This document shows, in pieces, positions 2,065-27,033 of a stretch of DNA of 32,223 nt. Under the pieces are notes generated by a model. The model was not told where the DNA came from. It saw only the letters and a program-made list of their open reading frames with translations, and did no database searches. Source of the DNA: Pseudomonadota bacterium. Lineage in GTDB: Bacteria > Desulfobacterota > Syntrophorhabdia > Syntrophorhabdales > Syntrophorhabdaceae. The stretch is taken from contig JAPLKF010000009.1 in assembly GCA_026388215.1 (NCBI GenBank), positions 1 through 32,223 on the forward strand, read 5' to 3'. The position numbers were made by a program, and so were the translations under genes. Positions within the stretch are counted from its first letter, which is position 1, and each line of letters begins with the position of its first letter.

Positions 2065-2070
2065 ATATCC

Positions 2071-2808: not shown

Positions 2809-2888
2809 CTAAAGATACGATGCATCATTTGTCTTTCGCCCCTCATCCCTCATTATTGTAAAATTATTCATTCTCAATTCTTCATTCA

Positions 2889-3275
2889 TCATTTAGCGGT
2901 TACCCTCGGATAGTTATGGCAGTCCCAGCAATGGGGTTTTACCCCTGCATAGTTGTGGCACTTATCGCAAAACCCCTCTTTATCAGAGTGACACTTTATG
3001 CACGTTCCTGTAAGGCCTATCGTATGGATCTTCCCATCTTTCGCCACATACGTTCTGACACCCTGCCTTACAGCTACTTCTTTCCATTTATCAAGCAGTT
3101 CCATATGGCGTGTTTTCATGTAAGGTGTAGATTCCACACACTGTTTTTCTGTGACAGGGACTTTTAATTCCGGTACGTATGCCGCCTTTCCTGTAAGCCC
3201 GTTATACCAGAGAGGGAACAGTATCAAGATGAGGAAGATTGTAATACCTGTTATTACTTTGACAGTATCATGCAT
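2889..3275 (-). CDS. dsrJ: DsrJ, periplasmic triheme cytochrome c
   Basis: This 128-aa protein has an N-terminal membrane anchor/signal (ITGITIFLILILFPLW) and exactly three CXXCH heme-binding motifs near the C-terminus (CIKCH, CDKCH, CWDCH). Cys46 in the segment VTEKQCVESTPYMKTRHMEL matches the conserved cysteine of DsrJ, known in Allochromatium as a ligand of the unusual His/Cys heme. It is the triheme subunit of DsrMKJOP facing the periplasm. It is separated from dsrK by a 175-bp repeat-bearing gap, unusual inside this complex operon. Confidence 0.95.
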   Translation of the reverse strand: MHDTVKVITGITIFLILILFPLWYNGLTGKAAYVPELKVPVTEKQCVESTPYMKTRHMELLDKWKEVAVRQGVRTYVAKDGKIHTIGLTGTCIKCHSDKEGFCDKCHNYAGVKPHCWDCHNYPRVTAK

Positions 3276-3288
3276 AAATATTCACCCA

Positions 3289-3465
3289 GAATATCCAATA
3301 ACCAAATTCCAAGCTCCAGACTTTACATAATTAAATTCTAATAACCACATCTCAATGACCAGACTTCTAACAATTAGATTGCTCTTTGAACGTATTCGTC
3401 TTGTGGTTGGTGCATGATCATTTGTTTGGTTATTGGAATTTGGTAATTGGTTATTCACCAAGTGG
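3289..3465. repeat. AT-rich inverted repeat of the AATAACCAAATTCC family between dsrK and dsrJ
   Basis: The left side contains aataaccaaattccaa and the right side ttggaatttggtaattgg followed by ttatt, so the ends are imperfect reverse complements around a less conserved centre. The right end overlaps the last codons and stop of dsrK. A related sequence lies between dsrA and dsrB (13021-13134). Such elements could form RNA hairpins that tune expression of downstream genes; that is inference. Confidence 0.7.
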
Positions 3466-5049
3466 TTCACCTCTCAGATTCGTCTTTCTCTCAGTCTCTC
3501 CCTTCATAACAAGGGCATTCCCCACAAGTTCATGGACACCAGCAACTTCCACACCAGGAACCCAGTATTCAAAAAGGGGTGGTAAAGAGGCCTTGTCAAT
3601 AGCACACATACAGGCCACCATATTTACCCCGTATGTTTCCTTAACATACTTTACCGCATTCGCCCTCGGGAATCCTCCCCTTAGCCTCATCTCTATATTC
3701 TCATCCGCCCCCAATCCTGCTCCACTTCCGCAGCAAAAGGTCCTCTCTTTTATCGTGTTTTCCGGCATTTCATAAAAGGAATTGCACACATTATTTATAA
3801 TGAACCTCGGTTCCTCAAAAAGACCCATAGCCCTGGCAGGGTTACAGGAGTCATGGAAGGTTACCTTCCACTTATCGTTTCTATGGGGGGCAAGCTTTAG
3901 TTTATTATGTTTTATCAGGTCAGCGGTAAACTCTGCTATGTGAACCATCTTTGTGGATTTTGTATTTTCAAACCTTGTCCCTGTTATCGGGGAAACAGGT
4001 TCTTCCAGAAAATCTGCAGGCCCATTAAACGTGTCCATGTACTGGTGAATAGTCCTCCACATATGGCCGCATTCCCCTCCGAGAATCCACTTAACCCCCA
4101 ACCTTTTCGCCTCAGCATATATCTTGTCGTTAAGACGTTTTGCCAGTTCCATCGAATGAAAGAGACCGAAGTTTCCCCCTTCAGAGGCATAGGCACTCCA
4201 GGTATAATCGAGACCGATTTCATGGAAAAGCATAAGGTAGCCAAGCAGTGTAAACCAGTGGGGGCTTGCAAAATAGTCCGCTGATGGAGCGATAAAGAGA
4301 ATTTCCGCACCTTTTTTGTTTATAGGCAGATCAACCCTGATACCCGTCAGATCTTCTATCTCATCAACTGCAAATTCCAGGGTCTTTTTAAAGGCGTGGG
4401 GTGGAACGCCGAGGTGATTACCTGTCCTGAAGCAGTTGGATGCGGGCTCGATAACCCACTGGATATTGCAGCCGACAAGGTTCAGGAGTTCCCTTGCCAT
4501 CATGGTAATCTCACAGGTATCGATGCCGAAAGGGCAATACACCGAGCAGCGCCTGCACTCCGTGCACTGAAAAAAATAATAAAACCATTCCTTCAACACA
4601 TCCACTGTGAGTTCTCTCCCACCGGCAAGTTTTCCAAAGAGCTTCCCTCCAAGGGTAAAATATCTCCGGTAGACCGACCTTAAGAGTTCTGCCCGCAATA
4701 CAGGCATATTTTTAGGGTCTCCTGAGCCAATAAAGAAATGACACTTGTCAGCGCATGCACCACACCGGACACAGATATCGAGAAAGAGCCGGAAGGAGCG
4801 ATGTTTTTTTAGAAGCTTCTCCATTCCGTCGAGTATGATTTCTTTCCAGTTTGCAGGAAGTTTCCAGTCTGCATCGTGAGGCTGCCATTCCCTCTGGTTC
4901 GGTAGTTCCAGATATTGCTGATGTTTTAAAGGGGCACTGTAACAGTAAGTTCCTTTTCTAAAGGTAGGGGTGGTCTCCATCCAGCCCTGTGCCGGCGGGG
5001 ATAGATTTATATCTAAGAGGTCATCCGGTTTTTTCAGTTCCTCAGCCAT
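3451..5049 (-). CDS. dsrK: DsrK, HdrD-like Fe-S subunit of DsrMKJOP
   Basis: This 532-aa protein has two [4Fe-4S] motifs: CVRCGACADKC (C93, C96, C99, C103) and CTECRRCSVYCP (C162, C165, C168, C172). A C-terminal half follows with FHDSCNPARAMG and FCCGSGAGLG, matching the cysteine-rich CCG-type module that holds the catalytic noncubane cluster in HdrB/HdrD proteins. DsrK is the cytoplasmic subunit thought to act on the DsrC disulfide/trisulfide and pass electrons to or from DsrM. It follows dsrM by 25 bp. Its final residues (GETERKTNLRGEPLGE) run up to the repeat, and the stop lies at the repeat edge. Confidence 0.95.
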   Translation of the reverse strand: MAEELKKPDDLLDINLSPPAQGWMETTPTFRKGTYCYSAPLKHQQYLELPNQREWQPHDADWKLPANWKEIILDGMEKLLKKHRSFRLFLDICVRCGACADKCHFFIGSGDPKNMPVLRAELLRSVYRRYFTLGGKLFGKLAGGRELTVDVLKEWFYYFFQCTECRRCSVYCPFGIDTCEITMMARELLNLVGCNIQWVIEPASNCFRTGNHLGVPPHAFKKTLEFAVDEIEDLTGIRVDLPINKKGAEILFIAPSADYFASPHWFTLLGYLMLFHEIGLDYTWSAYASEGGNFGLFHSMELAKRLNDKIYAEAKRLGVKWILGGECGHMWRTIHQYMDTFNGPADFLEEPVSPITGTRFENTKSTKMVHIAEFTADLIKHNKLKLAPHRNDKWKVTFHDSCNPARAMGLFEEPRFIINNVCNSFYEMPENTIKERTFCCGSGAGLGADENIEMRLRGGFPRANAVKYVKETYGVNMVACMCAIDKASLPPLFEYWVPGVEVAGVHELVGNALVMKGETERKTNLRGEPLGE

Positions 5050-5074
5050 TACAACTCCCGTCCTCCCTCGTGTT

Positions 5075-6070
5075 TCATTCGTTTTTCTCTAAAGGCAGTC
5101 CAGCTTCTTTCATGGCGTCCCTGAAGTCATTCTCCCATTCCTCATAGGTGTGTAGCTTTACAGGATAGTTCCAGGGATTGACATGTCTCACCATACGGTT
5201 ATTGTTCATCTGGTTGCGTGTGGGGCTGAAGAACACTCCAGCCATATGTATAATCTTGCTCACGGGTAAATACGCAAGGAAAACGCTCACGAGAAAGAGA
5301 TGGAGGTAAAAAGCCAATCTTATCCCGGGAGGCACAACAGGATGGAAACTTACGAGCCCGAGGCTCAATCTTTTTATCTCAAGGAGGTCTACCTTGAAAA
5401 TGTGTCGCATGAGGATCCCTGTTGATACGATACCTGCAATGAGAAAAAGGGTAAAGTAGTCAGAAGGGATAGAGATATATCGGATCTGTGGATAAATGAC
5501 CCTTCTCAGGAAAAGGTACGTGAGGGCAACAATAATCAGTCCATCAGTGATAAAGAGGGCAGGAATGGTTAATTCAAAAATACCGTCAACACCTTGAAGA
5601 AAAAGTACGAAGGCAGGAATGGGTTCTGTAAAAAACCGCAAATGTTTCATCAGTATGAAAAGCAATGACCAGTGAAATAACAGCCCTCCCAGCCAGAGGA
5701 ATTTATTTCCAGAAAAAACAAGCCTTCCCCCGTCTCTCAGTTCAACCCTGTCATTCCTGAAAAGTGAACGGAAGAGGAGCACCTCGAGGGCCATCCTCCC
5801 TATAACCCCTGCTCGGGTATAAGGACTTTCAATGTTATCAGCCTTTATCCAGGGGAGTGACTTCTGCTGGCCGCAGACAGTAGGGATGCAGAAAGGTTGC
5901 GGGGTTTTTGCCCACACAATGACACGGTAAATAATTCCACAAATGAATAAAAGAAAGGCTGTATAAGGTATCACGGCACCAAAAAGGGCATACATCCCGA
6001 ATATCCCGACCCCGGCATACGCGATTGATAACAGGGATATAACTGCAAGGAAAGGATAGAAAGCCTTCAT
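5075..6070 (-). CDS. dsrM: DsrM, membrane cytochrome b subunit
   Basis: This 331-aa protein has about six membrane helices and belongs to the NarI/DsrM cytochrome b family. Histidines placed in helices are candidate heme b ligands: LLFHWSLLFILMKHLRF, GILMRHIF, FYLHLFLVSV and SKIIHMAG. It oxidises or reduces menaquinone and is tightly partnered with DsrK, which follows. The C-terminal tail (NPWNYPVKLHTYEEWENDF) is typical of true DsrM. It starts 4 bp after the RsbRD-type gene, suggesting co-translation. Confidence 0.94.
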   Translation of the reverse strand: MKAFYPFLAVISLLSIAYAGVGIFGMYALFGAVIPYTAFLLFICGIIYRVIVWAKTPQPFCIPTVCGQQKSLPWIKADNIESPYTRAGVIGRMALEVLLFRSLFRNDRVELRDGGRLVFSGNKFLWLGGLLFHWSLLFILMKHLRFFTEPIPAFVLFLQGVDGIFELTIPALFITDGLIIVALTYLFLRRVIYPQIRYISIPSDYFTLFLIAGIVSTGILMRHIFKVDLLEIKRLSLGLVSFHPVVPPGIRLAFYLHLFLVSVFLAYLPVSKIIHMAGVFFSPTRNQMNNNRMVRHVNPWNYPVKLHTYEEWENDFRDAMKEAGLPLEKNE

Positions 6071-6074
6071 TTTT

Positions 6075-6632
6075 TTAGTCTACCTGTTTCATGATTTTAA
6101 GGAGTCTTAAGGCCATGTCTTTGCTGACCTTTGCCTCATTTACCCTTATCTCATAAATTTCTTCCCTGCATTTTAGATAAATATCAAAGGCAAGGGAGGC
6201 AAGCATGTCAATCTTTGTCTCAAACTGTAATAATTCAAATAGCATCTTGCTTTTATCATCCATCATCCATCGTCCCCTGGCCTCGCGCTGCGAAGCAGGG
6301 CAGGCCTCGTCCCTCGTCACTTCTTCCCTTACCGCCTTCTTAAGCAAAGAGACAAAAGAAATCGCCTGAGAGGGCATTAAATCCTGAACAGCCCTGATTC
6401 TTATAATACTGTCGAGAGCCGAAATAACCCTGTCAGAATCTCTCTCATATACCAGTTCATCAAAGAGGATTTCTGTCCCCTCAGAAATTATATGCCCAAC
6501 GGGATTTGCAAATCTGTTCTTCTCCTGTTTTAAAAAATTTGAAGTAACGGGCTGGTAGCTCTCAAGTATTAAATCAAACCACTTTTCTAATATAACCTTT
6601 TTCTTCTTTAAAAGAAGTTCTTTTAAGTTCAT
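6075..6632 (-). CDS. RsbRD N-terminal-like domain protein linked to dsrM
   Basis: This 185-aa soluble, mostly helical protein begins with the pattern LLLKKKKVILEKWFDLILESY and continues with KNRFANPVGHIISEGTEILFDELV. It resembles the RsbRD N-terminal (stress-response sensor-like) domain often found as a stand-alone gene directly before dsrM in sulfate reducers. Its biochemical role is unknown; a sensing or assembly role for DsrMK is inference. Residues about 102-126 (TRDEACPASQREARGRW and following) look out of place. They are encoded by a GC-rich repeat with gacgaggga and atggatgatggatgat units, probably an in-frame insertion. Confidence 0.72.
   Translation of the reverse strand: MNLKELLLKKKKVILEKWFDLILESYQPVTSNFLKQEKNRFANPVGHIISEGTEILFDELVYERDSDRVISALDSIIRIRAVQDLMPSQAISFVSLLKKAVREEVTRDEACPASQREARGRWMMDDKSKMLFELLQFETKIDMLASLAFDIYLKCREEIYEIRVNEAKVSKDMALRLLKIMKQVD
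6257..6326. repeat. Repeat-like insertion inside the RsbRD-type gene
   Basis: On the minus strand this stretch reads gtgacgagggacgag, then a GC-rich centre with a small hairpin (ctgc-ttcg-cag), then atggatgatggatgat. Base use differs strongly from the surrounding AT-rich gene, and the encoded peptide is unlike the rest of the domain. It keeps the frame open. Confidence 0.55.
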
Positions 6633-6653
6633 AAAAATCTCTAAATCACAGTT

Positions 6654-6749
6654 TTAAACTGATTTCTTGCTTCTCTTTTTCGGTCGTTTTTTTCCGTGCG
6701 TTCCCCTCCATACTTTACCACGCCTGGAGCGTTTGTCGCCTTTCCCCAT
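6654..6749 (-). CDS. Small ribosomal protein THX (31 aa)
   Basis: Between the YedF-like and RsbRD-type genes the minus strand encodes a 31-aa, extremely basic peptide that starts MGKGDKRSRRGKVWRGTHGK and ends KKRSKKSV. This matches 30S subunit protein Thx of Thermus (MGKGDRRTRRGKIWRG...) and its bacterial homologues, which bind a cavity in 16S rRNA of the small-subunit head. A good ribosome-binding site (aggagggcag) lies just before the ATG at 6749. It is too short for usual gene callers. Its location inside a dsr run is unexpected; it may be transcribed with the cluster. Confidence 0.85.
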   Translation of the reverse strand: MGKGDKRSRRGKVWRGTHGKKRPKKRSKKSV

Positions 6750-6806
6750 ACCTGCCCTCCTATGATCTCTAAAATTTATCAGTATAAACGAACAGATTCC
6801 CGTCCG

Positions 6807-7151
6807 TTACAAACTTATTACCTCATTATGGAGGACAAAATCCAGAATCTCATCCATCGTTGCAATGTTACCAACAGCGATACTATCTGTGAGACGCAAA
6901 TCCTGTACACATAACTTTCCTGCAAGAATTGTTACGCCTTTCTCTTCAAGGGCTTTCAGACGGGGAACTGCAGGCGAACCCTCTGCAAGGAGTTTCACTG
7001 CCATATTCCAGAATATCATCGCCTTCGGTCTATCTTCTCTTTTTGCAAGGGTTTCCAAGAGGTTCATGAGTATTGCGAATCCGAGGGTTTCGTCACCGCT
7101 GCCGACATACTCAGAACCAAAGACTATTACCTTGTCGCTGGTCTTATCCAT
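6807..7151 (-). CDS. YedF/DsrE-family protein (sulfurtransferase-like)
   Basis: This protein of about 114 aa has the pattern VIVFGSEYVGSGDETLGFAI at its start and MIFWNMAVKLLAEGSPAV later, like the DsrE-fold domain of YedF (the selenium-metabolism-associated sulfurtransferase-like family). The middle cysteine region, CGTC in many YedF proteins, reads AGKLCVQDLRL here, so one cysteine remains. There is no N-terminal TusA-like domain. It probably handles sulfur or selenium near DsrC, but this is inference. The start is ambiguous: GTG at 7160 or ATG at 7151; I chose the ATG. It follows the first dsrK-like gene. Confidence 0.72.
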   Translation of the reverse strand: MDKTSDKVIVFGSEYVGSGDETLGFAILMNLLETLAKREDRPKAMIFWNMAVKLLAEGSPAVPRLKALEEKGVTILAGKLCVQDLRLTDSIAVGNIATMDEILDFVLHNEVISL

Positions 7152-7189
7152 TCCACACACCGATATAGCAGGTAATTTTTATTATTGTC

Positions 7190-7222
7190 ACTCTTTCGCT
7201 CTCTGCTCCACGCTCTCTGCTG
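7190..7222. repeat. Short gctctctgctcca-type repeat between dsrK-like and yedF-like genes
   Basis: The plus strand reads ctctttcgctctctgctcc then acgctctctgctg, a run of degenerate gctctctgctcc units. A sequence of the same kind (ctttgctctatgctccttg) lies at 9724-9790 between dsrC and the dsrM-like gene. Low-complexity spacer repeats; no function is evident. Confidence 0.5.
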
Positions 7223-7224
7223 AT

Positions 7225-8823
7225 TTAATGCCATTCCCAGTCTATAAACGGCTTCTTGACTTCCTCCATCCCGTTGACAATCAGTTCCGCAAGTCCGCCA
7301 TAATATATACCGCATTCCTCCCAAACATTATAATAACTAAAGAGGTCCCGTATCTGTCCCTTACAGTTTGAGCACGGGGCACACACGTATTTTTTGATAT
7401 CCGGCGCAATGACATCCTGAAAGGTCTCCAATATCTGTTTGAGTTTTACCCTCCCTGACACAACACTTCGCCAGTCAGGAAAATTCATTGATTGCATAAT
7501 AGCAAATCCGCTCCCTCCACCGCAACAGTAATTCTCAACACCATGGGGTTCCATTTCCACAAATTGTGGACAAATTTTTCTGAGAATCCTCCTCTGGGGT
7601 TCCACAATACCCATGAGTCTCACCATGTTACATGGGTCATGAAGGGTGACGGGAAAGTTATTTTTGTTGGGATCTATCTTGATCCTTTCATTGCATACCA
7701 GATCTTCCAGTAATGGGAGGACACTTTCTCTCGGGATATTCAGGTCTCCTGTCAATACCCTATCGGCAACTACTATCATTGCCTTATGGGAGTGTCCGCA
7801 CTCACCAACGTTAATCTTTTTTACCTTCAATTTTTTTGCAATCTCAGCATGTCGTATGGCAATTCTGGCAAGCTGAAAGTCATCGTACCAGACACCGTAA
7901 TTGACCGCATCATATCCGACCAGCTCGCTCGAAAGCGTCCAGTCAATACCTGCCGCATCAAAAATGATTGCGAATGCTTCGGGATTTTCGGGCCATGAAA
8001 GAAATTCTCCTGCATTATGGATAAGCAGTATTTCTGCCCCTTCCTTATCAACAGGTATTTTAATCCTTTTACCTATCTTCTCCTCGATATCGTCTTCCAT
8101 GAAACTGATAATATTGCTGAGTGCCTTCGGTGTAATACCAGTACTTGAGCCTGCCTTTAACTGCTGAACGGTTCCCTGTTCGTGTAGCTCTTTGGGTGCA
8201 ATACCCAATTCCTGACTGAAGAGCTTTCTTATTTCATGACTGATAAGGCCATTGTCAACGCCGAGGGGACATACCTGGGCGCATTTCCTGCAGAGCGTGC
8301 AACGGTAAGCAAGCTCTGCGAGCCGTGCAACGAGGGTCCAGTTCAGGTCGATATCACTTCCGGTTAACTTGGACAGGATACCTCCCCGTTTTTTCAGATA
8401 CTTGTTAATAATCCGCCGCAGTATCTCAGGGCGGTACGTGGGGCGGTAGATCTCTTTTCTGCCGCTTGCGATGTATACCGGACATGAATCATTGCAGAGC
8501 TGACATTTAACGCAGTATTCGAGGGAATGGATGAGGGGCTGCAGGAATGTCCAGTTGTTCTCCTTCGAGAGGAGTTTTTCAAGACCTGAAAGAAATTTTT
8601 CGACAAACGTCTTTTCCTCTTCTACTGTTTTTGGCCTGGGAATGCCGATTGCCACCACGCCATCAAGGGATGCTTCATACCTACTTTTCTGTTCATCCGT
8701 AAGCTCCGTGATAGCTGGGTCTTTCTTAGGGTCATCATAGGGGTATGGAAGAGGCATCAAATCGGAAGGCGTAATCTTAATCAACTGGTCATTTTTTTTA
8801 CTGATGTCTTCTATCTTCATCAT
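7225..8823 (-). CDS. dsrK: DsrK paralogue (HdrD-like Fe-S protein), second DsrMK pair
   Basis: This 532-aa protein has two [4Fe-4S] motifs, CVKCQLCNDSCP (C104, C107, C110, C114) and CTLCRKCAQVCP (C175, C178, C181, C185), then HDPCNMVRLMG and YCCGGGSGFA typical of the HdrD/DsrK catalytic module, and a further CAPCSNCKGQ. It has the same length as the other DsrK but differs widely in sequence. It starts 18 bp after a dsrM-like gene, so the two should form a second membrane-bound disulfide-type reductase. Its place directly after dsrC suggests DsrC or a related persulfide/disulfide as partner. The symbol is given for family, not for proven function. Confidence 0.88.
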   Translation of the reverse strand: MMKIEDISKKNDQLIKITPSDLMPLPYPYDDPKKDPAITELTDEQKSRYEASLDGVVAIGIPRPKTVEEEKTFVEKFLSGLEKLLSKENNWTFLQPLIHSLEYCVKCQLCNDSCPVYIASGRKEIYRPTYRPEILRRIINKYLKKRGGILSKLTGSDIDLNWTLVARLAELAYRCTLCRKCAQVCPLGVDNGLISHEIRKLFSQELGIAPKELHEQGTVQQLKAGSSTGITPKALSNIISFMEDDIEEKIGKRIKIPVDKEGAEILLIHNAGEFLSWPENPEAFAIIFDAAGIDWTLSSELVGYDAVNYGVWYDDFQLARIAIRHAEIAKKLKVKKINVGECGHSHKAMIVVADRVLTGDLNIPRESVLPLLEDLVCNERIKIDPNKNNFPVTLHDPCNMVRLMGIVEPQRRILRKICPQFVEMEPHGVENYCCGGGSGFAIMQSMNFPDWRSVVSGRVKLKQILETFQDVIAPDIKKYVCAPCSNCKGQIRDLFSYYNVWEECGIYYGGLAELIVNGMEEVKKPFIDWEWH

Positions 8824-8841
8824 TTATCCTCTCGCAACCCA

Positions 8842-9714
8842 TCATTTTTTCGCATTCTCTCCCCACGTCTTTCCTGATTTGATATGTGGTGCAGACCATG
8901 TAACCTTCCATTTAAGCTGTTCCTGGAGCTTCTTTTCGAGTTCACTTCCTTTTGTATTCGGTTCATCATCCCATCTGATTAAAAAGAAGGCAAATAACCT
9001 TGAGATATAATGCATTGAGCGTGTATATGGAAGGTATATTAAAAACAGCGCAAAGATAATGATATGCACTTCCCCTGCAGGTTCAATCCCTGTAAAATGA
9101 AAAGTAATCAGCCCTTTCCAGAATTCCCTGTATTCAGAAAAGGTTGGGTCAACAAAATACCATGCATATAGTCCGCTTAAAAAGACAGCCAGAGTAAATA
9201 TGTAATTAAAGTAAGTTAATGGCGATGCGTAAGTTTTCAAATCTTTATCCGTAAGCCTTTTTATTATCAAGCCTATGCTGCCAAAAACCCCGGTTGTAAA
9301 ACTGACAACACCGATTACAATTGTTAAATAATAAAAGATATTTACACCAATAACCTCTGCTATTGCCCCTAAGAAACATAATATGTGGAATGTAATAATC
9401 AGTATAAAACCAATATGCCACGGATATAGAACAAGCCAGTAGCTTTTATGCCTCTTGAAATATTCTCCAAGGTACAAATATTCCTTTAAAAGATATATTA
9501 ACCCTCTTAAAAACCTTTTTTGGCGTGCCTTTGTCCACCACTCAATATCTTCAAAATATGAGCCTCCATACTTATATCTCTCTTCATGGATAACCGGATA
9601 AAGATCCCACCGGAGATGAACGGGCAACCTGAGGTATTTAACAATCTTTACCGTGTACATGGTTATGATGAAGATGTAGGCAAAATAGGTGAATATGGCA
9701 AGAAAGATGCTCAT
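8842..9714 (-). CDS. dsrM: DsrM-like cytochrome b membrane subunit, second DsrMK pair
   Basis: This protein of about 290 aa belongs to the NarI-like cytochrome b family. It has around six membrane helices and possible heme b ligands in WHIGFILIITFHILCF, GEVHIIIFALFLIYLPY and RSMHYISRLF. It is much diverged from the DsrM at 5075. The frame is open up to a GTG at 9759, but the first 15 residues there (KDSLLSALISQLND) derive from a repeat. I prefer the ATG at 9714, which begins directly with MSIFLAIFTYFAYIF. Followed by its DsrK-like partner. Confidence 0.85.
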   Translation of the reverse strand: MSIFLAIFTYFAYIFIITMYTVKIVKYLRLPVHLRWDLYPVIHEERYKYGGSYFEDIEWWTKARQKRFLRGLIYLLKEYLYLGEYFKRHKSYWLVLYPWHIGFILIITFHILCFLGAIAEVIGVNIFYYLTIVIGVVSFTTGVFGSIGLIIKRLTDKDLKTYASPLTYFNYIFTLAVFLSGLYAWYFVDPTFSEYREFWKGLITFHFTGIEPAGEVHIIIFALFLIYLPYTRSMHYISRLFAFFLIRWDDEPNTKGSELEKKLQEQLKWKVTWSAPHIKSGKTWGENAKK

Positions 9715-9723
9715 GTCATTTAG

Positions 9724-9790
9724 CTGAGAGATAAGAGCTGAGAGCAGAGAATCTTTCACTCTTTGCTCTATGCTCCTTGCTCCATGCTGA
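9724..9790. repeat. Repeat of gctctatgctcc / ctgagagc units between dsrC and dsrM-like gene
   Basis: The plus strand contains ctgagagataagagctgaga and ctttgctctatgctccttg then ctccatgctg. It is related in style to 7190-7222. It fills most of the dsrC to dsrM-like spacer and would lengthen the downstream protein if the GTG at 9759 were used. Confidence 0.5.
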
Positions 9791-11939: not shown

Positions 11940-13004
11940 TTACCACTTGAACTGTGTGGTGGTCCTGTAAGTATCCACTGCATGTGTGAAATCGTCAATA
12001 TGCTGTTCAGTGAAAGGAATACCGGTGAGGTCAAAGAATTTCTCCCAGCCTATCCTTTCAATCCATTCGCCCATTCTTTCATACTTCCGTGCGCGTTCAG
12101 CATATATATTGACTACCTTCTTGAGTACATCAGTAACCTCCGGCCAGCGTGGTGGATGATTCGGGAGATAAGGGACAATCATTCTTGAGAACATCGGTGG
12201 TTTTCTGGCATTAGAGACCTTCCCGCCAGCATATATCGCAACACCGTCTCCTTCGGCATCTGCCAGAGGCATGGCAGGACATACGGTAAAACAGTTCGCA
12301 CAGTACATACAGAGATCATCCCTCACAATGACGCTCTTTATATTCGGGTCAGGATTCCGCCTGATCGCCCCGGTCGGGCATGACTGTATTGTGGTCGGGA
12401 TCTCGCATACAGCGGATAGTTTACTATGGTCTATCTTTGGTGGCTTTCTGTGAACCCCCACTATGGCAAGATCAGAGCAGTGTATTGCTCCGCACATGTT
12501 GATACAACAGGCTACCGAGATCCTGAGAAGGGCAGGAAGTTTCATATTGGTAAACTGGTCATAAAACTCATCCATAATTGATTTGACCAACCCTGATGCA
12601 TCAGTTGCCGCACTGTGGCAGTGTATCCATCCCTGGGTGTGGACAATGTTGGAGATGCAGTTACCGGTTCCACCCACAGGAAGTCCCAGTTTGTTCATTT
12701 CGTCAAGGAGTCCCTGTACATTTTCCTCTTTGTCCGTGAGGAATTCGATGTTGGAGCGGCTGGTAAACCTCAAGTGTCCGTCACAGTATTTATCAGCGAT
12801 ATCGCAAATATCACGGATGAAGTCTATACTTACAAGCCTCGGTGAACCTACCCTCACAGTATACAGGGTATCGCCGGTCTCTGATACATGTTTAAGTACA
12901 CCGGGACGGGGTATTTCATGATATTTCCATTTTCCATAGTTCTTCTTAATTACTTCCGGCAACATGGTACGGTAATCAGGTGGTCCAATATCTGTTGCTC
13001 CCAT
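11940..13004 (-). CDS. dsrB: DsrB, dissimilatory sulfite reductase beta subunit
   Basis: This 354-aa protein has siroheme/[4Fe-4S] coordination cysteines in the segments [13 protein letters not shown] and nearby, and an inserted ferredoxin domain with [15 protein letters not shown]. It forms the alpha2-beta2 DsrAB enzyme that reduces sulfite in the cytoplasm. I chose the ATG at 13004 ([14 protein letters not shown]), preceded by aaggaggatgtt. The frame extends to 13067, but those 21 residues come from the repeat between dsrA and dsrB. Followed by dsrD. Confidence 0.97.
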
Positions 13005-13020
13005 AACATCCTCCTTATTA

Positions 13021-13134
13021 ATCACCAATAACCAAATACCAAATTCCAAACAATAAATAAGTTTCAAATTCCAATCGCTTGGTTATTGGGAATTGGTAAT
13101 TGGAATTTTTTTTGATACTTGATAATAGGTTATT
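13021..13134. repeat. AT-rich repeat of the AATAACCAAATTCC family between dsrA and dsrB
   Basis: The plus strand contains aataaccaaataccaaattc on the left and ttggttattgggaattgg then taattggaatt on the right, an imperfect inverted arrangement. The same units occur at 3289-3465 between dsrK and dsrJ. It makes the dsrA-dsrB gap 132 bp, although these subunits are required in equal amounts. Confidence 0.7.
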
Positions 13135-13136
13135 CA

Positions 13137-14309
13137 TCATTTTTTATCAAAAAATACGTATGGGTTTGCCCGAGGCTTATACACCATTTGAGGAACAGGT
13201 TCTATGCCCATTTCACGAAGGAATGTCTTGAGCCCAACCCTTTCAATCAGCTCCGCAAGCCTTTCTCTGGTTCTTCCATTTTCATCCCACCAGTCCCATA
13301 TTTTGCGGAGAAGGTCTTTGAGTTCTTCGTACGGCGGTTCAATCTTAATGAACGGTATCAATACCCATGAAAGATACGCCCCCTTGATAATAGGCGCTTT
13401 ACCGCCAATAAGAATGGTAGCGCCTCTGTTAAGCCCAGGTCTTATCGCTTTTGGCATCTTATTTATACAGTGCATACACCTTACACAATCTTCCGGCTGA
13501 AGGATTAATTCCTTTGTCTTTTCATCCCACTCAAGTGCATTGGTAGGACACTTATCCACTATAAGTTTATGGATGTCAAATCCTCTGTCGGCGTATTCTC
13601 TGACGCTATTTTGATCAATCCTTAGGTTGTCCCTCCAGGTGCCTATTATGGTGAAATCAGCCCTTGCTATTGCCGCCACACAGTCATTTGAACAGCCTGA
13701 AGCTTTAATCTTGAATTTGTAAGGCCATCGCGGCCTGTGGATTTCGTCCTGAAATTCCATGGTCAGGTTATAGATGAGATCGAGGGTATCAATCGTAGAC
13801 CATTCACACCGTGCAGGGCCTACACATCCAGTAGGTGTCCGTAAAACTGAACCTGAACCACCGAGATCGAAGCCGACCTCTATAAGTGCATCAAAGCATG
13901 GCTGGAGATTCTCTGTAGTAGTTCCGAGGAGTATGAGGTCACCCGTTGAACCGTGGAGATTCGTCATGCCACTCCCGAACCTTTCCCATACATCACAGAT
14001 CTGTCTTAAGGCCTTTGTTGTATAAAACCAGCCACCCGGGTGGTTTACGCGCAATGTATGGAAGGATGCTGCATTGGGAAATTTTTCAGGAACATCGCAG
14101 TACCTCCCGATAACACCACCTCCATAGCCTGTAACGCCAACAATGCCTCCATGTTTCCAGTGAGTTACTCTGTCTTTATAAGATAATTCCTGAATGCCGA
14201 GCAGGTCTTTTGCGGCCTTGTTCTTTTTTGCAGCCCGTTTTATCTCTTTGACATAGCTCGGCCATGGCCCCTTATCCAGCTCATCCAGTAATGGGGTTCC
14301 TTCATCCAT
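13137..14309 (-). CDS. dsrA: DsrA, dissimilatory sulfite reductase alpha subunit
   Basis: This 390-aa protein has the siroheme-[4Fe-4S] ligand segments [16 protein letters not shown] and [17 protein letters not shown] and an inserted ferredoxin-like segment [18 protein letters not shown]. It is the catalytic partner of DsrB; siro(ama)heme coupled to an Fe-S cluster performs the six-electron chemistry on sulfite. The ATG at 14309 is preceded by taaggaggtgaaag, and a clear sigma-70-type promoter lies about 70-90 bp upstream. It is the first gene of the dsr run. Confidence 0.97.
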
Positions 14310-14374: not shown

Positions 14375-14402
14375 ATAATAGCATTTTATAAAATCTTGTC
14401 AA
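14375..14402 (-). promoter_or_regulatory. Sigma-70-type promoter for dsrA
   Basis: On the minus strand: TTGACA (plus-strand 14397-14402), a 16-bp spacer, and TATTAT (14375-14380). It lies in the 191-bp gap between the nifS-like gene and dsrA, so dsrA can be transcribed independently of nifUS. The stretch is very AT-rich. Confidence 0.7.
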
Positions 14403-14500: not shown

Positions 14501-15667
14501 TTACCCTTTCTTCTTATAAAGCGGTGACATACTTCTGAGAAAATCGACACTCTTCTTGAGGGAGTCAACAGTTTTATCTATTTCTTCGAATGTGTTGTTA
14601 ATACCCAGGGAGAAAATAGCTGTTCCCTGGGCAATTGTGTAGTCGCAGCCAATAGAAGTTAAAACGTGTGATGCCCTGAGTGATCCTGTAGCACAGGCAG
14701 AGCGGGTCGATACACAGATCCCCACCTGATCGAGCATAAGCACCATTGACTCGCCCTCCACATATTTCACCGAGCATGATATTAAGTTTGGAAGACTTTT
14801 CGTTGGGTGCCCGTTTATATTGATTTCTTCAATCTCGTTCAACCGGCCTATAAGGTATTTCTTCAGTTTTAGCATATACTCCATACGTTCTTTCATCCCT
14901 TTTCTTGCCAGCTCGGCGGCCTTCCCCATACCAATAATACCGACCATATTCTGTGTTCCAGCCCGCAGATTCATCTCCTGAATACCACCATCTAAAATGG
15001 GAACAATCCTGGTGTTTGTGCGGACGTATAGCGCACCAGCCCCTGAAGGACCGTAGAACTGATTTGCAGCTAAACTCAGGAGGTCTACCCCCATTGATTC
15101 AACATCTACCGGGATTACGCCGGCTGAAGCAACAGCATCCGTATGGAGGGTTATCCCTCTCGCCCGGGTGATTTTACTTATCTCTGAAATAGGCTCAATG
15201 GTTCCAATTTCATTGTTGGCATGCATGATGCTCACAAGAATGGTTTCATCGGTGATAGCCTTTTCCACCTCTCCCGGGTCAACCAATCCAAATTTATCCA
15301 CAGGCAAAGAGGTTACATGATAACCCAGTCTCATTAATGCTCTGAGAGAACGGAGCACTGCCTGATGCTCGATGTTCGAAGTAATAATATGTTTTCTCCT
15401 GTCAGCCATGGCGAAGGCAACCCCTTTAATCGCATGGTTGATTGATTCGGTGCCTCCCGAGGTAAAGACAACCTCTTCAGGTTTAGCATTGATGAGTTGT
15501 GCTACCTCTCTCCTGGCATTTTCCAGGGCTTCCATTGCCTGATCCCCCATATGGTGCTGGCTTATCGGGTTACCAAATGAATTTTGTATATAATTGATCA
15601 TAGTCTCTTTTACTTCAGTATGAAGCGGTGTAGCAGAAATGTTGTCAAGGTAAATCATTTTTGCCAT
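14501..15667 (-). CDS. NifS/IscS-like cysteine desulfurase homologue lacking the PLP lysine
   Basis: This 388-aa protein is colinear with class I cysteine desulfurases: FTSGGTESINHAIKG, His101 in SNIEHQAVL, HTDAVASAGVIPVDV, and the persulfide loop STRSACATGS with Cys325. However, the PLP Schiff-base site reads LAANQFYGPSGAG, giving Asn202-Gln203 in place of the His-Lys of E. coli IscS (H205, K206). Ala180 replaces the PLP-contacting Gln183, and Ile351 replaces the substrate-carboxylate Arg354. I checked the codons: AAT CAG and GCT ATT. It is probably not a normal PLP cysteine desulfurase. It may be a persulfide carrier or work with another cofactor. It follows the nifU-like gene by 20 bp and precedes dsrA. 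Confidence 0.85.
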   Translation of the reverse strand: MAKMIYLDNISATPLHTEVKETMINYIQNSFGNPISQHHMGDQAMEALENARREVAQLINAKPEEVVFTSGGTESINHAIKGVAFAMADRRKHIITSNIEHQAVLRSLRALMRLGYHVTSLPVDKFGLVDPGEVEKAITDETILVSIMHANNEIGTIEPISEISKITRARGITLHTDAVASAGVIPVDVESMGVDLLSLAANQFYGPSGAGALYVRTNTRIVPILDGGIQEMNLRAGTQNMVGIIGMGKAAELARKGMKERMEYMLKLKKYLIGRLNEIEEININGHPTKSLPNLISCSVKYVEGESMVLMLDQVGICVSTRSACATGSLRASHVLTSIGCDYTIAQGTAIFSLGINNTFEEIDKTVDSLKKSVDFLRSMSPLYKKKG

Positions 15668-15687: not shown

Positions 15688-16206
15688 TCAATGATTATTG
15701 AGCGTTGGCTTTCCACAGTTCGAACAGTAAGGGGCCTCTTTTGGCAGTTCAATATCACAATACGGACAGTAACAATGCTCTTTTCCCATTTGGAGGTATT
15801 CAACCTTACCGCCTCTTGTCTTCTTCGTTCGCCCCTCTTTTTTATCAAAATAATCCATAATTGCTTTGTGTAAAGCCTCTGCACCAAGATTTGTGCAGTG
15901 AAGTTCATTTTTTGGAAGTTCTCCAACTTCAGCCAATATAGTCTTATTGGTAATGTTAAGAGCCTCCTCCAGAGTCTTTCCTTTGGCCATTTCAGTTATC
16001 ATACTCGATACTGCAATTGCTGCACCACACCCGAACGTCTCAAATTTAATCTCTTCAATACGATTATCCCTGACCTTTATCGTTATGGCCATCATATCAC
16101 CGCATACAGGGTTACCAGCCTCTCCAATCCCATCAGGATTGGTAATTCTCCCAACGTTACGTGGATTTTTGAAATGTTCCATAACAATTTCCGAATATAC
16201 AGACAT
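15688..16206 (-). CDS. NifU/IscU-type Fe-S scaffold with C-terminal zinc ribbon
   Basis: This 172-aa protein begins with an IscU-like domain carrying the three scaffold cysteines: NPVCGD (Cys35, with Asp37), FGCGAA (Cys60) and HCTNLG (Cys104). Instead of the usual NifU ferredoxin and Nfu domains it has a linker (KKEGRTKKTRGGK) and a short zinc ribbon, CPYC...CSNC (C147, C150, C161, C164). It assembles and delivers Fe-S clusters with a sulfur donor, presumably the neighbouring NifS-like protein. Ribosome-binding site gaggaggtatt before the ATG at 16206; its own promoter is visible upstream. Confidence 0.9.
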   Translation of the reverse strand: MSVYSEIVMEHFKNPRNVGRITNPDGIGEAGNPVCGDMMAITIKVRDNRIEEIKFETFGCGAAIAVSSMITEMAKGKTLEEALNITNKTILAEVGELPKNELHCTNLGAEALHKAIMDYFDKKEGRTKKTRGGKVEYLQMGKEHCYCPYCDIELPKEAPYCSNCGKPTLNNH

Positions 16207-16246: not shown

Positions 16247-16274
16247 ATTATAGACATTTTATTGTCTTTTTCAA
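16247..16274 (-). promoter_or_regulatory. Promoter for the nifU-nifS-like pair, overlapping a small palindrome
   Basis: Minus strand: TTGAAA (plus 16269-16274), a 16-bp spacer, TATAAT (16247-16252). The spacer contains gacaataaaatgtc, an inverted repeat (GACA/TGTC) that could be an operator. No Rrf2/IscR gene is in the window. Confidence 0.65.
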
Positions 16275-16395: not shown

Positions 16396-17931
16396 ATGGA
16401 AGAAAAAAAGCAGGGCATTGATTGGACAACGCTCTGGAAAAAAGACGACTGGATGTCGGTCTGGATAGGATTCCTCATTCTCATTATCTTTATAGCCGGA
16501 GCTACATTCAAGCTTCCTGGCTGGCAATGGATGACCGATGGTGCTTTCATTGATAAGGTGTCCGGTTTGGCGCCAAAGGTCGAAGCACTCGCAAGGGATG
16601 CAGAAGGTAAGGGTGAGGCGAATATTCAGAAAGAATCACTTGCCCTTAAGGCTGCGCTCGATGCAAAAGACAGAAAGGTAATAGGTGATGCGGCTGGTAA
16701 ACTCGAAAAGGTAGCTAAGGATGCAAAAGATAAAGATATTAAAAAGAAAGCTGAAAAATTTGGTAAGGATATCAAAGGAAATGCCGGGGCAACGATCGGA
16801 AAAGTCTTCTCTGGCAATAATATGCTCAGGGCGTTATACCTGCTGGTAGGGTTATGGATACTCGGTGCAATAGGAATGGCTTTTATGGGTGTGTCTGTGG
16901 GCAAATTTACACTCAGTTTTCCAATTGTCTACATACTTTGTGCATTGTCCTTTTTGGTTGCCGGGAACAGCACGGTTTCTTACTACGGCCTTGAGGTCGT
17001 TTTCTGGGCGTTAATCTTAGGACTCATCATAAGCAATACCGTTGGTGTGCCTGAATGGTTTAAAACTGCAGTAAAAACAGAGTTTTTTATCAAGATAGGA
17101 CTTGTTCTCCTCGGTGCAGAGGTGCTCTTTACCACTATCGCAAAAGTGGGAGCGTATGGGATGGTTCAGGCTGTCATTGTCATTGGAGCTGTTTTCTATG
17201 TCTGTTTATGGGTCTGCAGGAAGATTGGTCTTGACGATGAATTTGCAGCAATTCTTGGCACTGCAGTATCTATATGCGGTGTTTCAGCGGCTATAGCAGC
17301 TGGTGGTGCTGTAAAAGGTGACCAGAAGAAGGTAAGCCATACCATATCACTCGTACTCTTGTGCGCTATCCCAATGCTGATCTTTGAACCCCTTATCGCA
17401 AAGGCGGTAGGGATGCTTCCTGCGGTTGCCGGCGCGTGGATAGGGGGTACCATCGATACAACAGGTGCAGTTGTTGCAGCAGGCGCTATTGCCGGTGAGG
17501 AAGCAATGGCCGTAGCAGTTGTTGTGAAAATGGCACAGAATGTATTGATTGGTGCTGCTGCCTTCTTACTTGCCATCTGGTTTACCTTTAAAGGAAAAGA
17601 AGGTGCAGAAAAACCAAGTCTTATGGAAATATGGTTCAGATTCCCGAAATTTGTCGTTGGCTTCATCGTTGCCTCCATAGTTTTTTCCTTCTTTATGTCT
17701 GATGCATCAGCCAAGGCTGTCACGGGGATCACCGCCGGTTTAAGAGGCTGGTGGTTCACGCTTGCCTTTTTATGTATAGGGCTTGATACAAGGTTCAAAG
17801 AGCTTATGTCAATGGGTGGTGGCAAACCGGCTGCAGCATTCCTTATTGCCCAGGCATTTAACATCCTGTGGACGTTGATTTTTGCATATCTCATCTTCGG
17901 TGGTATACTCTTCCCGGCGCCAAAGTTCTAA
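16396..17931 (+). CDS. YeiH-family putative sulfate exporter / anion transporter with N-terminal insert
   Basis: This 511-aa membrane protein has roughly ten or eleven hydrophobic helices of the UPF0324/YeiH family. Examples include the glycine/alanine-rich stretches AILGTAVSICGVSAAIAAGG and GGTIDTTGAVVAAGAIAGEE, conserved in the family. Typical YeiH proteins are about 350 aa. Here there is one N-terminal helix, then a hydrophilic Ala/Lys/Asp-rich segment at about residues 55-135 (LAPKVEALARDAEGKG, AAGKLEKVAKDAKDK) that looks like charged amphipathic helix. Family members are named sulfate exporters by annotation, but the substrate is unproved; a location beside dsr genes supports a sulfur oxyanion. 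Strong promoter and ribosome-binding site. Confidence 0.85.
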   Translation: MEEKKQGIDWTTLWKKDDWMSVWIGFLILIIFIAGATFKLPGWQWMTDGAFIDKVSGLAPKVEALARDAEGKGEANIQKESLALKAALDAKDRKVIGDAAGKLEKVAKDAKDKDIKKKAEKFGKDIKGNAGATIGKVFSGNNMLRALYLLVGLWILGAIGMAFMGVSVGKFTLSFPIVYILCALSFLVAGNSTVSYYGLEVVFWALILGLIISNTVGVPEWFKTAVKTEFFIKIGLVLLGAEVLFTTIAKVGAYGMVQAVIVIGAVFYVCLWVCRKIGLDDEFAAILGTAVSICGVSAAIAAGGAVKGDQKKVSHTISLVLLCAIPMLIFEPLIAKAVGMLPAVAGAWIGGTIDTTGAVVAAGAIAGEEAMAVAVVVKMAQNVLIGAAAFLLAIWFTFKGKEGAEKPSLMEIWFRFPKFVVGFIVASIVFSFFMSDASAKAVTGITAGLRGWWFTLAFLCIGLDTRFKELMSMGGGKPAAAFLIAQAFNILWTLIFAYLIFGGILFPAPKF

Positions 17932-18020: not shown

Positions 18021-19115
18021 TCACACACCAAGCATTTTATGACAGGTCTTGCATGGAGACGGGGGTTCTGTTAGTTCCAGGGTTTCTGGTTTTTTCATAT
18101 CAAAAAGTGCCTGGTACGTTTCTTCAATCCTTTTCTTTCTCCGGGCAAAACAATCCCTGAATTCGACATATTCCTTCCTGTTCCATATTGTCTCAAATGA
18201 CTCCCTGAAAATATTCCCAAAGCTTATCTTTTCTACAGTAAGTTCCTCCCCGCAGAAGATTCTTTTAAAAGGGGAAGGAATGGGTGGATAAAGGTACACA
18301 CAGGGAGATATTTCGCCGTCTACAGATATGTAAAGATTTCTAAGGGGGTTTTCACTGCACACCGCCACATCATGGGGTGAGAGGTACGGTGCAGTTAATT
18401 TGATTTTTAATTGCTTAGCCTTTGTTCTTGCCTCATCCATAATGTTACTATGAGATTCTTCATTTTCGCATGTAAATACCTTCTCGCTATCCTGCCAGGC
18501 ATTTGATATCTGTATAATATTTATAAGTACAACTTCCTCAATGCCAAGTGTTTTTGCAAGCTCGATGACAAGCGGGACCTCAGATATATTATCTGCAAGC
18601 ATGAGGTAGACGATATGAATCTTTGGTTTTTTTAACTTATTCTTATCGCTTAATTTCCTGAAAAGTTTTATTGAATTGATTAGCATGCCAAAATCAGAAT
18701 TTACCCTGATCGAATTGTGCGTTTTACTCGTAGCTCCTGAGAGGGAAAATCCTACAAAATCGATCCCTGCATTGACAAGTTTCATAATATAATCTTCATT
18801 CAATCCCATCCCGCTTGTTACAAAACCAACCTCAGGCCCTTCCTGTTTCGAAAGCCTTATAAATTCGATCAAATCCTTGTGGAGGAGTGATTCACCCCAC
18901 CCTTCAAGGACAACGCTCTCCACATCATTCAAGTATGGTGTGATTTTTTTAAAATCCTCAATACCCATATCTCTGCGAAGGTAATCCTTGTACTCGTCTT
19001 TTACACACATCGTACATTGTAAGGGGCACCTTGTAGTAATCTCAATCTGCCACGCAGAAAATTGTCTCTTTTTTGGTTTCTGAAGAAATCTTTGAAAAAT
19101 GGTCATATCCCTCAC
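18021..19115 (-). CDS. Radical SAM protein with SPASM-like C-terminus
   Basis: This 364-aa protein has the radical SAM cluster motif CPLQCTMC (C30, C34, C37; CxxxCxxC). A C-terminal SPASM-type cysteine region follows: a Cys in AVCSENPLRNLY, then VDGEISPCVYLYPP, FRDCFARR and PPSPCKTCHKMLG, probably binding an auxiliary Fe-S cluster. SPASM proteins commonly modify peptides or act as enzyme-maturation factors; the substrate here is unknown. It starts with GTG at 19115 overlapping the upstream stop (GTGA), with an alternative ATG at 19106. Last gene of a four-gene tight run. Confidence 0.9.
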   Translation of the reverse strand: MRDMTIFQRFLQKPKKRQFSAWQIEITTRCPLQCTMCVKDEYKDYLRRDMGIEDFKKITPYLNDVESVVLEGWGESLLHKDLIEFIRLSKQEGPEVGFVTSGMGLNEDYIMKLVNAGIDFVGFSLSGATSKTHNSIRVNSDFGMLINSIKLFRKLSDKNKLKKPKIHIVYLMLADNISEVPLVIELAKTLGIEEVVLINIIQISNAWQDSEKVFTCENEESHSNIMDEARTKAKQLKIKLTAPYLSPHDVAVCSENPLRNLYISVDGEISPCVYLYPPIPSPFKRIFCGEELTVEKISFGNIFRESFETIWNRKEYVEFRDCFARRKKRIEETYQALFDMKKPETLELTEPPSPCKTCHKMLGV

Positions 19116-21754: not shown

Positions 21755-21855
21755 CAAGATAGTAATTAAGAGTGCTGAATGAAAAGTTAAAATTTGAGAA
21801 ATGTAAAATTCTTATACCGGATTTTCATTCTTCATTTTTCATTGTTGTGAAACCG

Positions 21856-22299
21856 ATGGATGAGATAGATAAAAGGATATTGAATATTATACAGGAGGAA
21901 TTCCCTCTTACCCAAAGACCGTTTAAAAGCATTGGGGAATCCATAGGCATAAGTGAGAAGAAAGCTATCGAGAGGGTAAAAAGGTTAAAAGACAAAGGTT
22001 ATATAAGAAGAATAGGGCCGGTATTAGAACCAAAAAAGCTTGAATATATGAGCACCCTCTGCGGTGCACATGTAGATGAAAACAAACTCCCTGACTTTGT
22101 AAAAGAGGTGAATAGGCACAAAGGCATAACCCATAATTATGAACGGGAAGGCGAGTTAAATCTGTGGTTTACTATTGCAGCGGAAACAGAGGAGGAGATA
22201 GAACGTTTTCTTTCAAAACTTGAAAAGAGATTCTCAATTACAATATATAAATTCCCCAAAAAAAGGGTATTCAAGATAAAAACAATTTTTCCAGTATGA
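21856..22299 (+). CDS. Siroheme decarboxylase-like protein (AhbA/AhbB family, Lrp/AsnC fold)
   Basis: This 147-aa protein has an N-terminal helix-turn-helix (DEIDKRILNIIQEEFPLTQR, SIGISEKKAIERVKRL) and a C-terminal ferredoxin-like domain with HNYEREGELNLWFTIAAE. The HNYERE..NLWFT signature marks siroheme decarboxylases AhbA/AhbB (also NirDLGH) rather than true Lrp regulators. They convert siroheme to didecarboxysiroheme in the alternative heme b pathway of sulfate reducers. AhbA and AhbB usually work as a pair, and only one is present here; which one I cannot tell. The frame extends upstream to 21772, but those 28 residues are repeat-derived; I chose the ATG at 21856, which opens the conserved part. 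Confidence 0.85.
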   Translation: MDEIDKRILNIIQEEFPLTQRPFKSIGESIGISEKKAIERVKRLKDKGYIRRIGPVLEPKKLEYMSTLCGAHVDENKLPDFVKEVNRHKGITHNYEREGELNLWFTIAAETEEEIERFLSKLEKRFSITIYKFPKKRVFKIKTIFPV

Positions 22300-25798: not shown

Positions 25799-27031
25799 TT
25801 ACTTTATTTGTGTGGAGTTTATCTTTAAAAAATCGTTTACCCAATAGCTTACTTCTTTTAAATTCACTGGAGAAACAATTGCCCATAGTATCCTTACAGG
25901 ATGTTTTCCTTTCAGTACCTTTGCTGGCCATCGGCTATATTTCTCAAATTCGTGGGTAAAAGCATCATTAAATCTCCTGATTGCTTTTCCTCTTTCTTCA
26001 CCTTGCATCCAGTCAAACTTAAGTTTATTCTCGATTGTCTGTATAATTTCCAGTTGCTTCTTTCCTTCTGTTCCTTCATCAAGGCACCTGAGCAAAAAGC
26101 CCAATCGTGCACCGGTGATTGCCCATTCTGCCATAGGTTTAGTAATACTCCTTCGTAAATAGAGACTTTGAAAATCGTTAATCAATTTCCTTAGTTCGTC
26201 ACTTCTTTCCATATCAATTGAGGAGAGGATTTCCATCTGCCCGATCATATCTGCCAAAATAGTATCCTTATTAAACGAAATACCTCGTTGAACCGCTTCC
26301 AGCCTCGCTCTGTAAATGAAATGCTCTTTAATATCATCAAAATCTACTTCATGCCAATTGAATGTGACAAGAGAGTCAACATCATATACCTGTTTGATAT
26401 ACTCGTCTGCCCGTTCCGGTGGAATACCAATGGTATTGACTCCGAGTGTTGTCAGTTTATCTCCAATCAGGGCATTTAACGGCATAATTTGATATGTGTT
26501 GTCCGTTGTAAGGGCAAATAGGACAGGGGATGATATGTTGTGAATTGCGAGAGATTCTTTTAGCATAAAAAATTCTATTTTGATCTCTTGAATACCCGTA
26601 GATCCGCCAAATACTTCGTTTTCTCCACATACCGATGGAACATCAAGGTAATATGCAAGCAAGGGCAAATCTGTTTTTGGAGTTTTTGGTTTATGGAGCC
26701 TGAATTTAAAGAAAGTCTCCTCGCCATTGAACCGTTTTTCAATAAGCCCAAGCGTATTTTCTACTTCTTTTATGTCCGCTACGCATATCATATCAATATC
26801 AACACTTGTTCTTTGGTGTTCCACAGGTATATAAAACTGTGAGGCCGCCCCGCCTTTTAAAACAACTTTATCTTTTAGAATACTTTGAATCTGCAAAAAG
26901 ATTTCCAAATCCCACAGGAAAAGCTCCATTCTTGCCAGATTATTAAAACCCAGTTCATCGAGACGTTTCGTCAGCGTTTCTCTTGTAAAACAGCCTCTAT
27001 CGTGTATTAAAGCATTTTCGTTATATACCAT
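25799..27031 (-). CDS. AbiEii-like nucleotidyltransferase toxin
   Basis: This 410-aa protein has the nucleotidyltransferase motif VVLKGGAASQFY (Gly60-Gly61) followed by RTSVDIDM with Asp78 and Asp80. Later comes LIGDKLTTLGVNTIG, the conserved Lys/Leu region of the AbiEii/AbiGii family (PF08843 type). In AbiE systems this domain is the toxin, thought to transfer nucleotides to a cellular target and to give abortive phage defence. Most family members are near 300 aa, so the ~110-residue C-terminal part (SRWPAKVLKGKHPVRILWAI and around) is additional. Start follows the antitoxin stop by 2 bp. Confidence 0.82.
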   Translation of the reverse strand: MVYNENALIHDRGCFTRETLTKRLDELGFNNLARMELFLWDLEIFLQIQSILKDKVVLKGGAASQFYIPVEHQRTSVDIDMICVADIKEVENTLGLIEKRFNGEETFFKFRLHKPKTPKTDLPLLAYYLDVPSVCGENEVFGGSTGIQEIKIEFFMLKESLAIHNISSPVLFALTTDNTYQIMPLNALIGDKLTTLGVNTIGIPPERADEYIKQVYDVDSLVTFNWHEVDFDDIKEHFIYRARLEAVQRGISFNKDTILADMIGQMEILSSIDMERSDELRKLINDFQSLYLRRSITKPMAEWAITGARLGFLLRCLDEGTEGKKQLEIIQTIENKLKFDWMQGEERGKAIRRFNDAFTHEFEKYSRWPAKVLKGKHPVRILWAIVSPVNLKEVSYWVNDFLKINSTQIK

Positions 27032-27033
27032 CT

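Follow-up and report, generated by a model that had tools for sequence, protein, structure and literature searches.

We found that the IscS homologue encoded beside the dsr genes in the window (the whole stretch of DNA analysed, 32,223 nucleotides long) has lost the catalytic lysine, glutamine and arginine together, and that it belongs to a single bacterial clade of lysine-less proteins in which the gene is maintained by purifying selection and paired with iscU, the IscU of the window's own group carrying a C-terminal ribbon. The reading that we favour, with a probability of about 0.6, is that this non-catalytic IscS docks IscU and lends it Cys325, with sulfide as the source of sulfur, a mechanism that we infer from comparison with known systems.

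The translation of the iscS ORF contains LLSLAANQFYGPSG. In an alignment with E. coli K-12 IscS, five residues were replaced (K206 by Q203, H205 by N202, S203 by A200, Q183 by A180 and R354 by I351), whereas H104, D180, T76, N155, T243 and C328 were kept as H101, D177, T73, N152, T238 and C325, and N151 was also retained; the residues named in the first-pass annotation (Gln203, Ala180, Asn202 and Ile351 as changes, Cys325 and His101 as survivors) were therefore all correct. The protein has the aminotransferase class V, fold type I architecture (Aminotran_5, PF00266, 274 bits), and its AlphaFold model (pTM 0.82, with low confidence in the region of the Cys loop) matched IscS structures in Foldseek at a TM of 0.9, including 4eb7 and 4hvk from A. 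fulgidus. It scored below the cut-offs of FeS_nifS TIGR03402 (449.1 bits vs 530.75) and TIGR02006 (387 bits vs 643.2), and the only NCBIfam NifS/IscS cut-off that it passed was that of the broad subfamily NF002806 (307.3 vs 304). As a class I cysteine desulfurase, the protein thus has the fold and Cys325 but no equivalents of Lys206, Gln183 and Arg354. Because these three catalytic residues are lost together, ordinary PLP-dependent cysteine desulfuration cannot, judging from the sequence, proceed in this protein by any known mechanism, in line with what had been anticipated from the window alone. A sequencing error or pseudogene was ruled out, since the same loss is present in every orthologue from independent assemblies and pairwise dN/dS values are low (0.03-0.08 for iscS and 0.07 for iscU), indicating that both proteins are maintained under strong purifying selection.

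Table 1. Positions of the iscU-iscS pair, its diagnostic residues and nearby features in the window
Feature	Position	Strand	Evidence
Lysine-less IscS/NifS homologue, 388 aa, group A	14501..15667	(-)	ORF, profile matches, model
Codons 202-203 (Asn202-Gln203), AAT CAG; E. coli H205-K206, Schiff-base lysine	15059..15064	(-)	Alignment, codon reading
Ala180 codon; E. coli Q183	15128..15130	(-)	Alignment
Ile351 codon; E. coli R354, substrate carboxylate	14615..14617	(-)	Alignment
Cys loop RSAC, Arg322 to Cys325	14693..14704	(-)	Alignment, residue counts
IscU/NifU_N scaffold, 172 aa, directly upstream of iscS	15688..16206	(-)	Profile and PDB match, alignment
CxCPYC-x10-CxxC ribbon at IscU C-terminus; Cys 145, 147, 150, 161 and 164 invariant	15715..15774	(-)	Alignment
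Sigma-70-like promoter TTGAAA-16-TATAAT upstream of iscU	16247..16274	(-)	Pattern match only, 11/12
Sigma-70-like promoter TTGACA-16-TATTAT between iscS and dsrA	14375..14402	(-)	Pattern match only, 11/12
dsrA, 191 bp downstream of iscS, not a constant partner	13137..14309	(-)	TIGR02064, 567 bits
dsrB, neighbour	11940..13067	(-)	TIGR02066, 517 bits

Orthologues were collected from 60 relatives and by scanning 84,980 species. Those of the window IscS, which share 52-81% identity with it and come from Nitrospirota and Desulfobacterota assemblies, have the lysine in no case, and the 60-relative search placed ordinary IscS homologues clearly apart, at 40-47% identity. More than 60 orthologues have Q, P, T, A, S or R in place of the lysine. 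When the Lys/Gln/Arg triad was scored in 174 distinct IscS-type sequences, all three residues were present in 74 and none in 99, the lone exception being L094, which retained only the Gln; a further 24 copies from ten additional genome searches, several of them repeating proteins already counted, obeyed the rule without exception. At position 203, the distinct lysine-less proteins had Q (61), P (18), T (13), A (3), R (2), M (1), L (1) or S (1), in a sample biased towards [AS]ANQFYGP, on which one of the two scan patterns had been modelled. Asn-Gln as a fixed new motif was thereby ruled out. Five loci (L138, L140, L156, L202 and L204) contained more diverged variants of the lysine site (SSQMLHGP, SGPALGAP, SSHLIHGP and SGPSLGAP), mostly with iscU alongside.

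The nucleophilic Cys, Cys325, was found in 109/109 lysine-less proteins with an intact loop, and Asp177 (111/111), His101 (110/110) and Arg235 (111/111) were kept throughout. In active enzymes, the equivalents of Asp177 and His101 hold PLP, and since both are invariant, the pocket of the lysine-less IscS may still bind a PLP-like ligand. The same conserved residues would suit a PLP enzyme of unusual mechanism, with PLP held non-covalently by Asp177 and His101; however, the protein has lost the gem-diamine lysine as well as the Gln and the substrate Arg, residue 203 accepts P, T, A, S, R, M or L, so that no new catalytic residue has been fixed there, and the A. fulgidus IscS, in which the same three residues are lost, was reported to be inactive (PMC7585200), making such an enzyme highly improbable. 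Position 322 in the Cys loop was Arg in 70, Gly in 31 and Lys in eight of the lysine-less proteins vs Gly in 75/75 lysine-bearing ones, and Arg or Lys at this site is a mark typical of the group A IscS. Two records of a fairly closely related Nitrospirota copy, L026 and its duplicate L041 (G006/G062), were left out of the counts that need the Cys loop; they represent a group A IscS in which an in-frame deletion removes the Cys325 segment while iscU and its ribbon are intact, which points either to faulty assembly or to a group member that lacks this Cys.

In a tree computed after removal of the trait columns, all 53 rows of bacterial lysine-less proteins fell on one side of a single branch (support 100/97), which was present in every bootstrap tree. 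This clade consists of group A, which includes the window protein and has a support of 100, group B (Chloroflexota, Planctomycetota, Omnitrophota and others) and group C (Nitrospirota). The first-pass annotation had raised the possibility of a clade of the Asn-Gln variant; a clade does exist, but its mark is Asn202, invariant in the window's own clade, together with the missing lysine, and not the Asn-Gln pair. IscS-2 of A. fulgidus grouped with lysine-bearing archaeal IscS proteins, and holding it inside the bacterial clade cost 25 log units (p-AU 0.029, moderate). A single origin shared with A. fulgidus is therefore disfavoured, at the moderate strength of that test, and the lysine has probably been lost at least twice, each time with the Gln and the Arg.

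The gene iscU lies next to iscS in nearly all group A loci and was the only constant neighbour when the loci were compared. Its cluster ligands C35, D37, C60, H103 and C104 were invariant in 25 aligned group A members, and the window IscU accordingly has the three cluster Cys and the Asp of a scaffold (C35, D37, C60 and C104). Its best PDB match was the IscU of A. fulgidus (4eb5_C), whose structure was determined together with a lysine-less IscS. The ribbon tail, whose match to Zn_Ribbon_1 was slightly below the cut-off of that profile and which was modelled at lower confidence than the well-predicted scaffold domain, was found in 68/68 intact group A IscU proteins (two more were cut by contig ends), in none of the 26 IscU partners of lysine-bearing IscS and in at least two of the 22 from groups B and C, a lower bound, as several group C sequences were truncated where the retrieved stretches ended. 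Thus, the pairing with an adjacent zinc-ribbon NifU proposed at the outset is both conserved and specific. In addition, the region of the E. coli LPPVK motif reads LPKN[KE] in group A IscU, so that recognition by an HscA-type chaperone would not be expected by analogy with the E. coli system.

No recurrent sulfurtransferase partner was present among the neighbours of the pair loci. This bears on the main rival to our reading, a persulfide relay, in which sulfane sulfur from elsewhere (a lysine-bearing NifS, a rhodanese or polysulfide) would be passed to Cys325 and then to IscU as persulfide. Cys325 and the SAC around it show the same conservation as in active enzymes, a lysine-bearing NifS is encoded in the window genome and in 9/10 other genomes checked, and the Arg or Lys at position 322, near Cys325 in group A, could aid the binding of an anionic persulfide. 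However, the pair has no conserved sulfurtransferase gene beside it, and the A. fulgidus precedent is that of a cluster ligand and not of a sulfur carrier (PMC7585200), so that we consider the relay unlikely. Compared with the persulfide carrier suggested in the first-pass annotation, a cluster-ligand and docking role fits this precedent, by analogy, at least as well.

The genome (2.39 Mb, 96.8% complete) was also surveyed for homologues of IscS, IscU and SufB/D. There are three other IscS homologues, namely a lysine-bearing NifS (contig C36), a SufS-like protein (C13) and a second lysine-less IscS (C18), whereas IscU genes number only two, both beside a lysine-less iscS. SufB/D was not found in this genome by a search that was positive in 14/14 control genomes. 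The same state, with no SufB/D found and every IscU beside a lysine-less IscS, was seen in G002, G037, G038, G040 and G049, giving six genomes in which every IscU is paired with an IscS devoid of the catalytic residues; all six are metagenome-assembled and about 97-99% complete, so that a SUF or IscU gene may have been missed. The pairing of every IscU in these genomes with a lysine-less IscS is the strongest argument that the pair would be the working Fe-S machine and not an accessory. It is also conceivable that a lysine-bearing NifS, being present in the window genome and most others, could feed IscU in trans, or that scaffolds such as Nfu or ApbC contribute. A protein that is catalytically dead through residue loss might instead be a pseudoenzyme with a purely regulatory or inhibitory effect on IscU or the lysine-bearing NifS, but pure inhibition is unlikely where no IscU has any other kind of IscS next to it and SUF was not found, as in these six genomes, and we give this explanation hardly any credence.

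The second pair, on contig C18 (L036:361-1977), reads SPHQFYGP in its lysine-less IscS and also contains DGAGT; it adjoins a YjbQ-like gene, with dnaJ-, grpE- and hrcA-like genes a few kb away, and related pairs were observed in many Nitrospirota. The lysine-bearing NifS on C36 (L037:6247-9846) has neighbours whose ORFs read as UPF0280-like, ferredoxin-like and MtaB-like (tRNA thiotransferase) genes, with no iscU, and is possibly a desulfurase for tRNA thiolation.

On the minus strand of the window, the gene order is iscU, iscS, a 191-bp gap, dsrA, dsrB, a gene of the cobyrinate a,c-diamide synthase (CobB/CbiA) family, dsrC, a dsrM-like gene and dsrK. Since one of the promoter-like sites (Table 1) precedes dsrA, transcription of this gene may start separately. 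A role dedicated to Dsr, one of the options in the first-pass annotation, would have the pair build the siroheme-[4Fe-4S] and other clusters of DsrAB and DsrMK, or take sulfur directly from the Dsr pathway. In favour of this role, dsrA lies within 5 kb of the group A iscS, always downstream and on the same strand, in the window and in four other Nitrospirota genomes (G002, G005, G012 and G016), and in the window's family the group A IscS was present in 15/15 genomes with dsrA vs 3/22 without (Fisher p=9e-8, a value that ignores shared ancestry). In the species scan, 21/26 group A loci were in dsrA genomes vs 2/14 for groups B and C, some of these genomes overlapping with the family set. However, the five adjacent cases are drawn from about 21 Nitrospirota genomes with both genes, so that the two are apart in about 16, and no dsrA adjacency was seen in the non-Nitrospirota loci examined. 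Of 147 Desulfobacteria genomes, 37 had group A, 35 of them with dsrA, but dsrA was also present in 98 of the 110 others (p=0.52). Furthermore, group A occurs in some dsrA-negative genomes, the lysine-less pair on C18 has no link to dsr, and the promoter-like site ahead of dsrA is separate from that of iscU. The dsr operon was therefore rejected as a constant context, and dedication to Dsr was not borne out and appears quite improbable; the association with Dsr is loose and lies in a common lifestyle more than in a common operon.

Other genes of the window were noted in passing. In the region 898-9759, DsrM/DsrK-like genes form two modules (8842-9759/7225-8823 and 5075-6070/3451-5049), and a gene encoding an RsbRD N-terminal domain lies between these (6075-6632). 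The region also has an ORF that reads as a small protein of DsrE type (6807-7160), a DsrJ-like protein with CxxCH (2889-3275) and DsrO/DsrP-like genes; the DsrD search gave no match in any control. A YeiH-like transporter gene (16396-17931) and a gene for a radical SAM/SPASM protein related to maturases of tungsten-cofactor oxidoreductases (18021-19115) were also found near the pair in several Nitrospirota genomes. A protein like NirDL/AhbAB-type siroheme decarboxylases (21772-22299) hints at a siroheme-based heme route. Further along, a gene for an AbiEii-type nucleotidyltransferase adjoins one for a DUF6577 protein (25799-27801), an arrangement like that of type IV toxin-antitoxin pairs, and an IS110-family transposase is encoded at 30300-31703.

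According to the docking mechanism that we propose, a former class I cysteine desulfurase, in which the PLP-lysine Schiff base would no longer be formed, serves as a fixed, probably dimeric partner onto which the neighbouring IscU would dock. The Cys325 loop would be offered to the cluster site of IscU, either as a cluster ligand or as a landing site for sulfur, which would enter as free sulfide, plentiful in such anaerobes; the Fe-S cluster would then be assembled on IscU, and the CxCPYC ribbon may help metal loading, thiol transfer or handover to clients. This is the most economical reading: the A. fulgidus IscS provides a precedent, and in an E. coli that lacks iscS, Fe-S proteins are recovered when H2S is supplied under anaerobic conditions, with IscU being required (PMC13015791). 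Together, these considerations suggest that sulfide, and not cysteine, is the source of Fe-S sulfur in such anaerobes. A broader and more tentative proposal is that a large, ancient branch of bacterial IscS abandoned cysteine chemistry to become an obligate, non-catalytic partner in Fe-S assembly fed by sulfide, possibly the sole Fe-S system in some anaerobes without SUF or an iscU beside a lysine-bearing IscS, and that its dsr-linked branch may couple, through the ribbon-tailed IscU, to dissimilatory sulfide.

In the textbook account, Fe-S biogenesis begins with cysteine desulfuration. If whole lineages operate all the IscU scaffolds they have with an inactive desulfurase, IscS would be essential there for its structure and the sulfur would come from sulfide; such assembly, if true, is what would be expected of early anaerobic life, and the H2S rescue in E. 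coli hints at it. In practical terms, many anaerobe proteins annotated as "cysteine desulfurase" cannot have this activity, and scoring the Lys/Gln/Arg triad provides a simple rule to spot a non-catalytic IscS.

We found no report of a bacterial lysine-less IscS linked to dsr in a literature search that covered few subscription journals. The closest known system is the A. fulgidus IscS-2/IscU complex (PDB 4eb5, 4eb7 and 4hvk; D199K mutant, 4r5f), in which the lysine-less IscS is reported to be inactive as a desulfurase and to supply a Cys that ligates the IscU-bound cluster (PMC7585200). IscS-2 is 44% identical to the window IscS and, like it, has lost the lysine and the equivalents of Q183 and R354 (A176 and L347), has Asn for H205, keeps the Cys and has an IscU partner; it differs in having Asp and not Gln at the lysine site, in the absence of an Arg from the Cys loop and in its separate origin, as it was placed outside the bacterial clade (p-AU 0.029, moderate). 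IscS1 of M. acetivorans also lacks the catalytic lysine and adjoins IscU in a genome with other active copies (PMC7585200); this archaeal IscS1-IscU1 pair, compared by description alone, resembles that of the window in these two respects. E. coli IscS, also at 44% identity, shares the fold and the Cys loop, but its K206, Q183, R354, H205 and S203 have no equivalents in the window protein. The minimal iron-sulfur (MIS) system, MisS-MisU, is a two-gene IscS-IscU unit whose MisS is described as a cysteine desulfurase (PMC12442378); the window pair is similar in consisting of IscS and IscU without hscAB, fdx or iscA alongside, but, compared by description only, differs in that its IscS lacks the catalytic residues and its IscU bears a C-terminal ribbon. 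The window pair is thus one that probably works like the lysine-less IscS-IscU of A. fulgidus, yet belongs to a separate, large bacterial clade.
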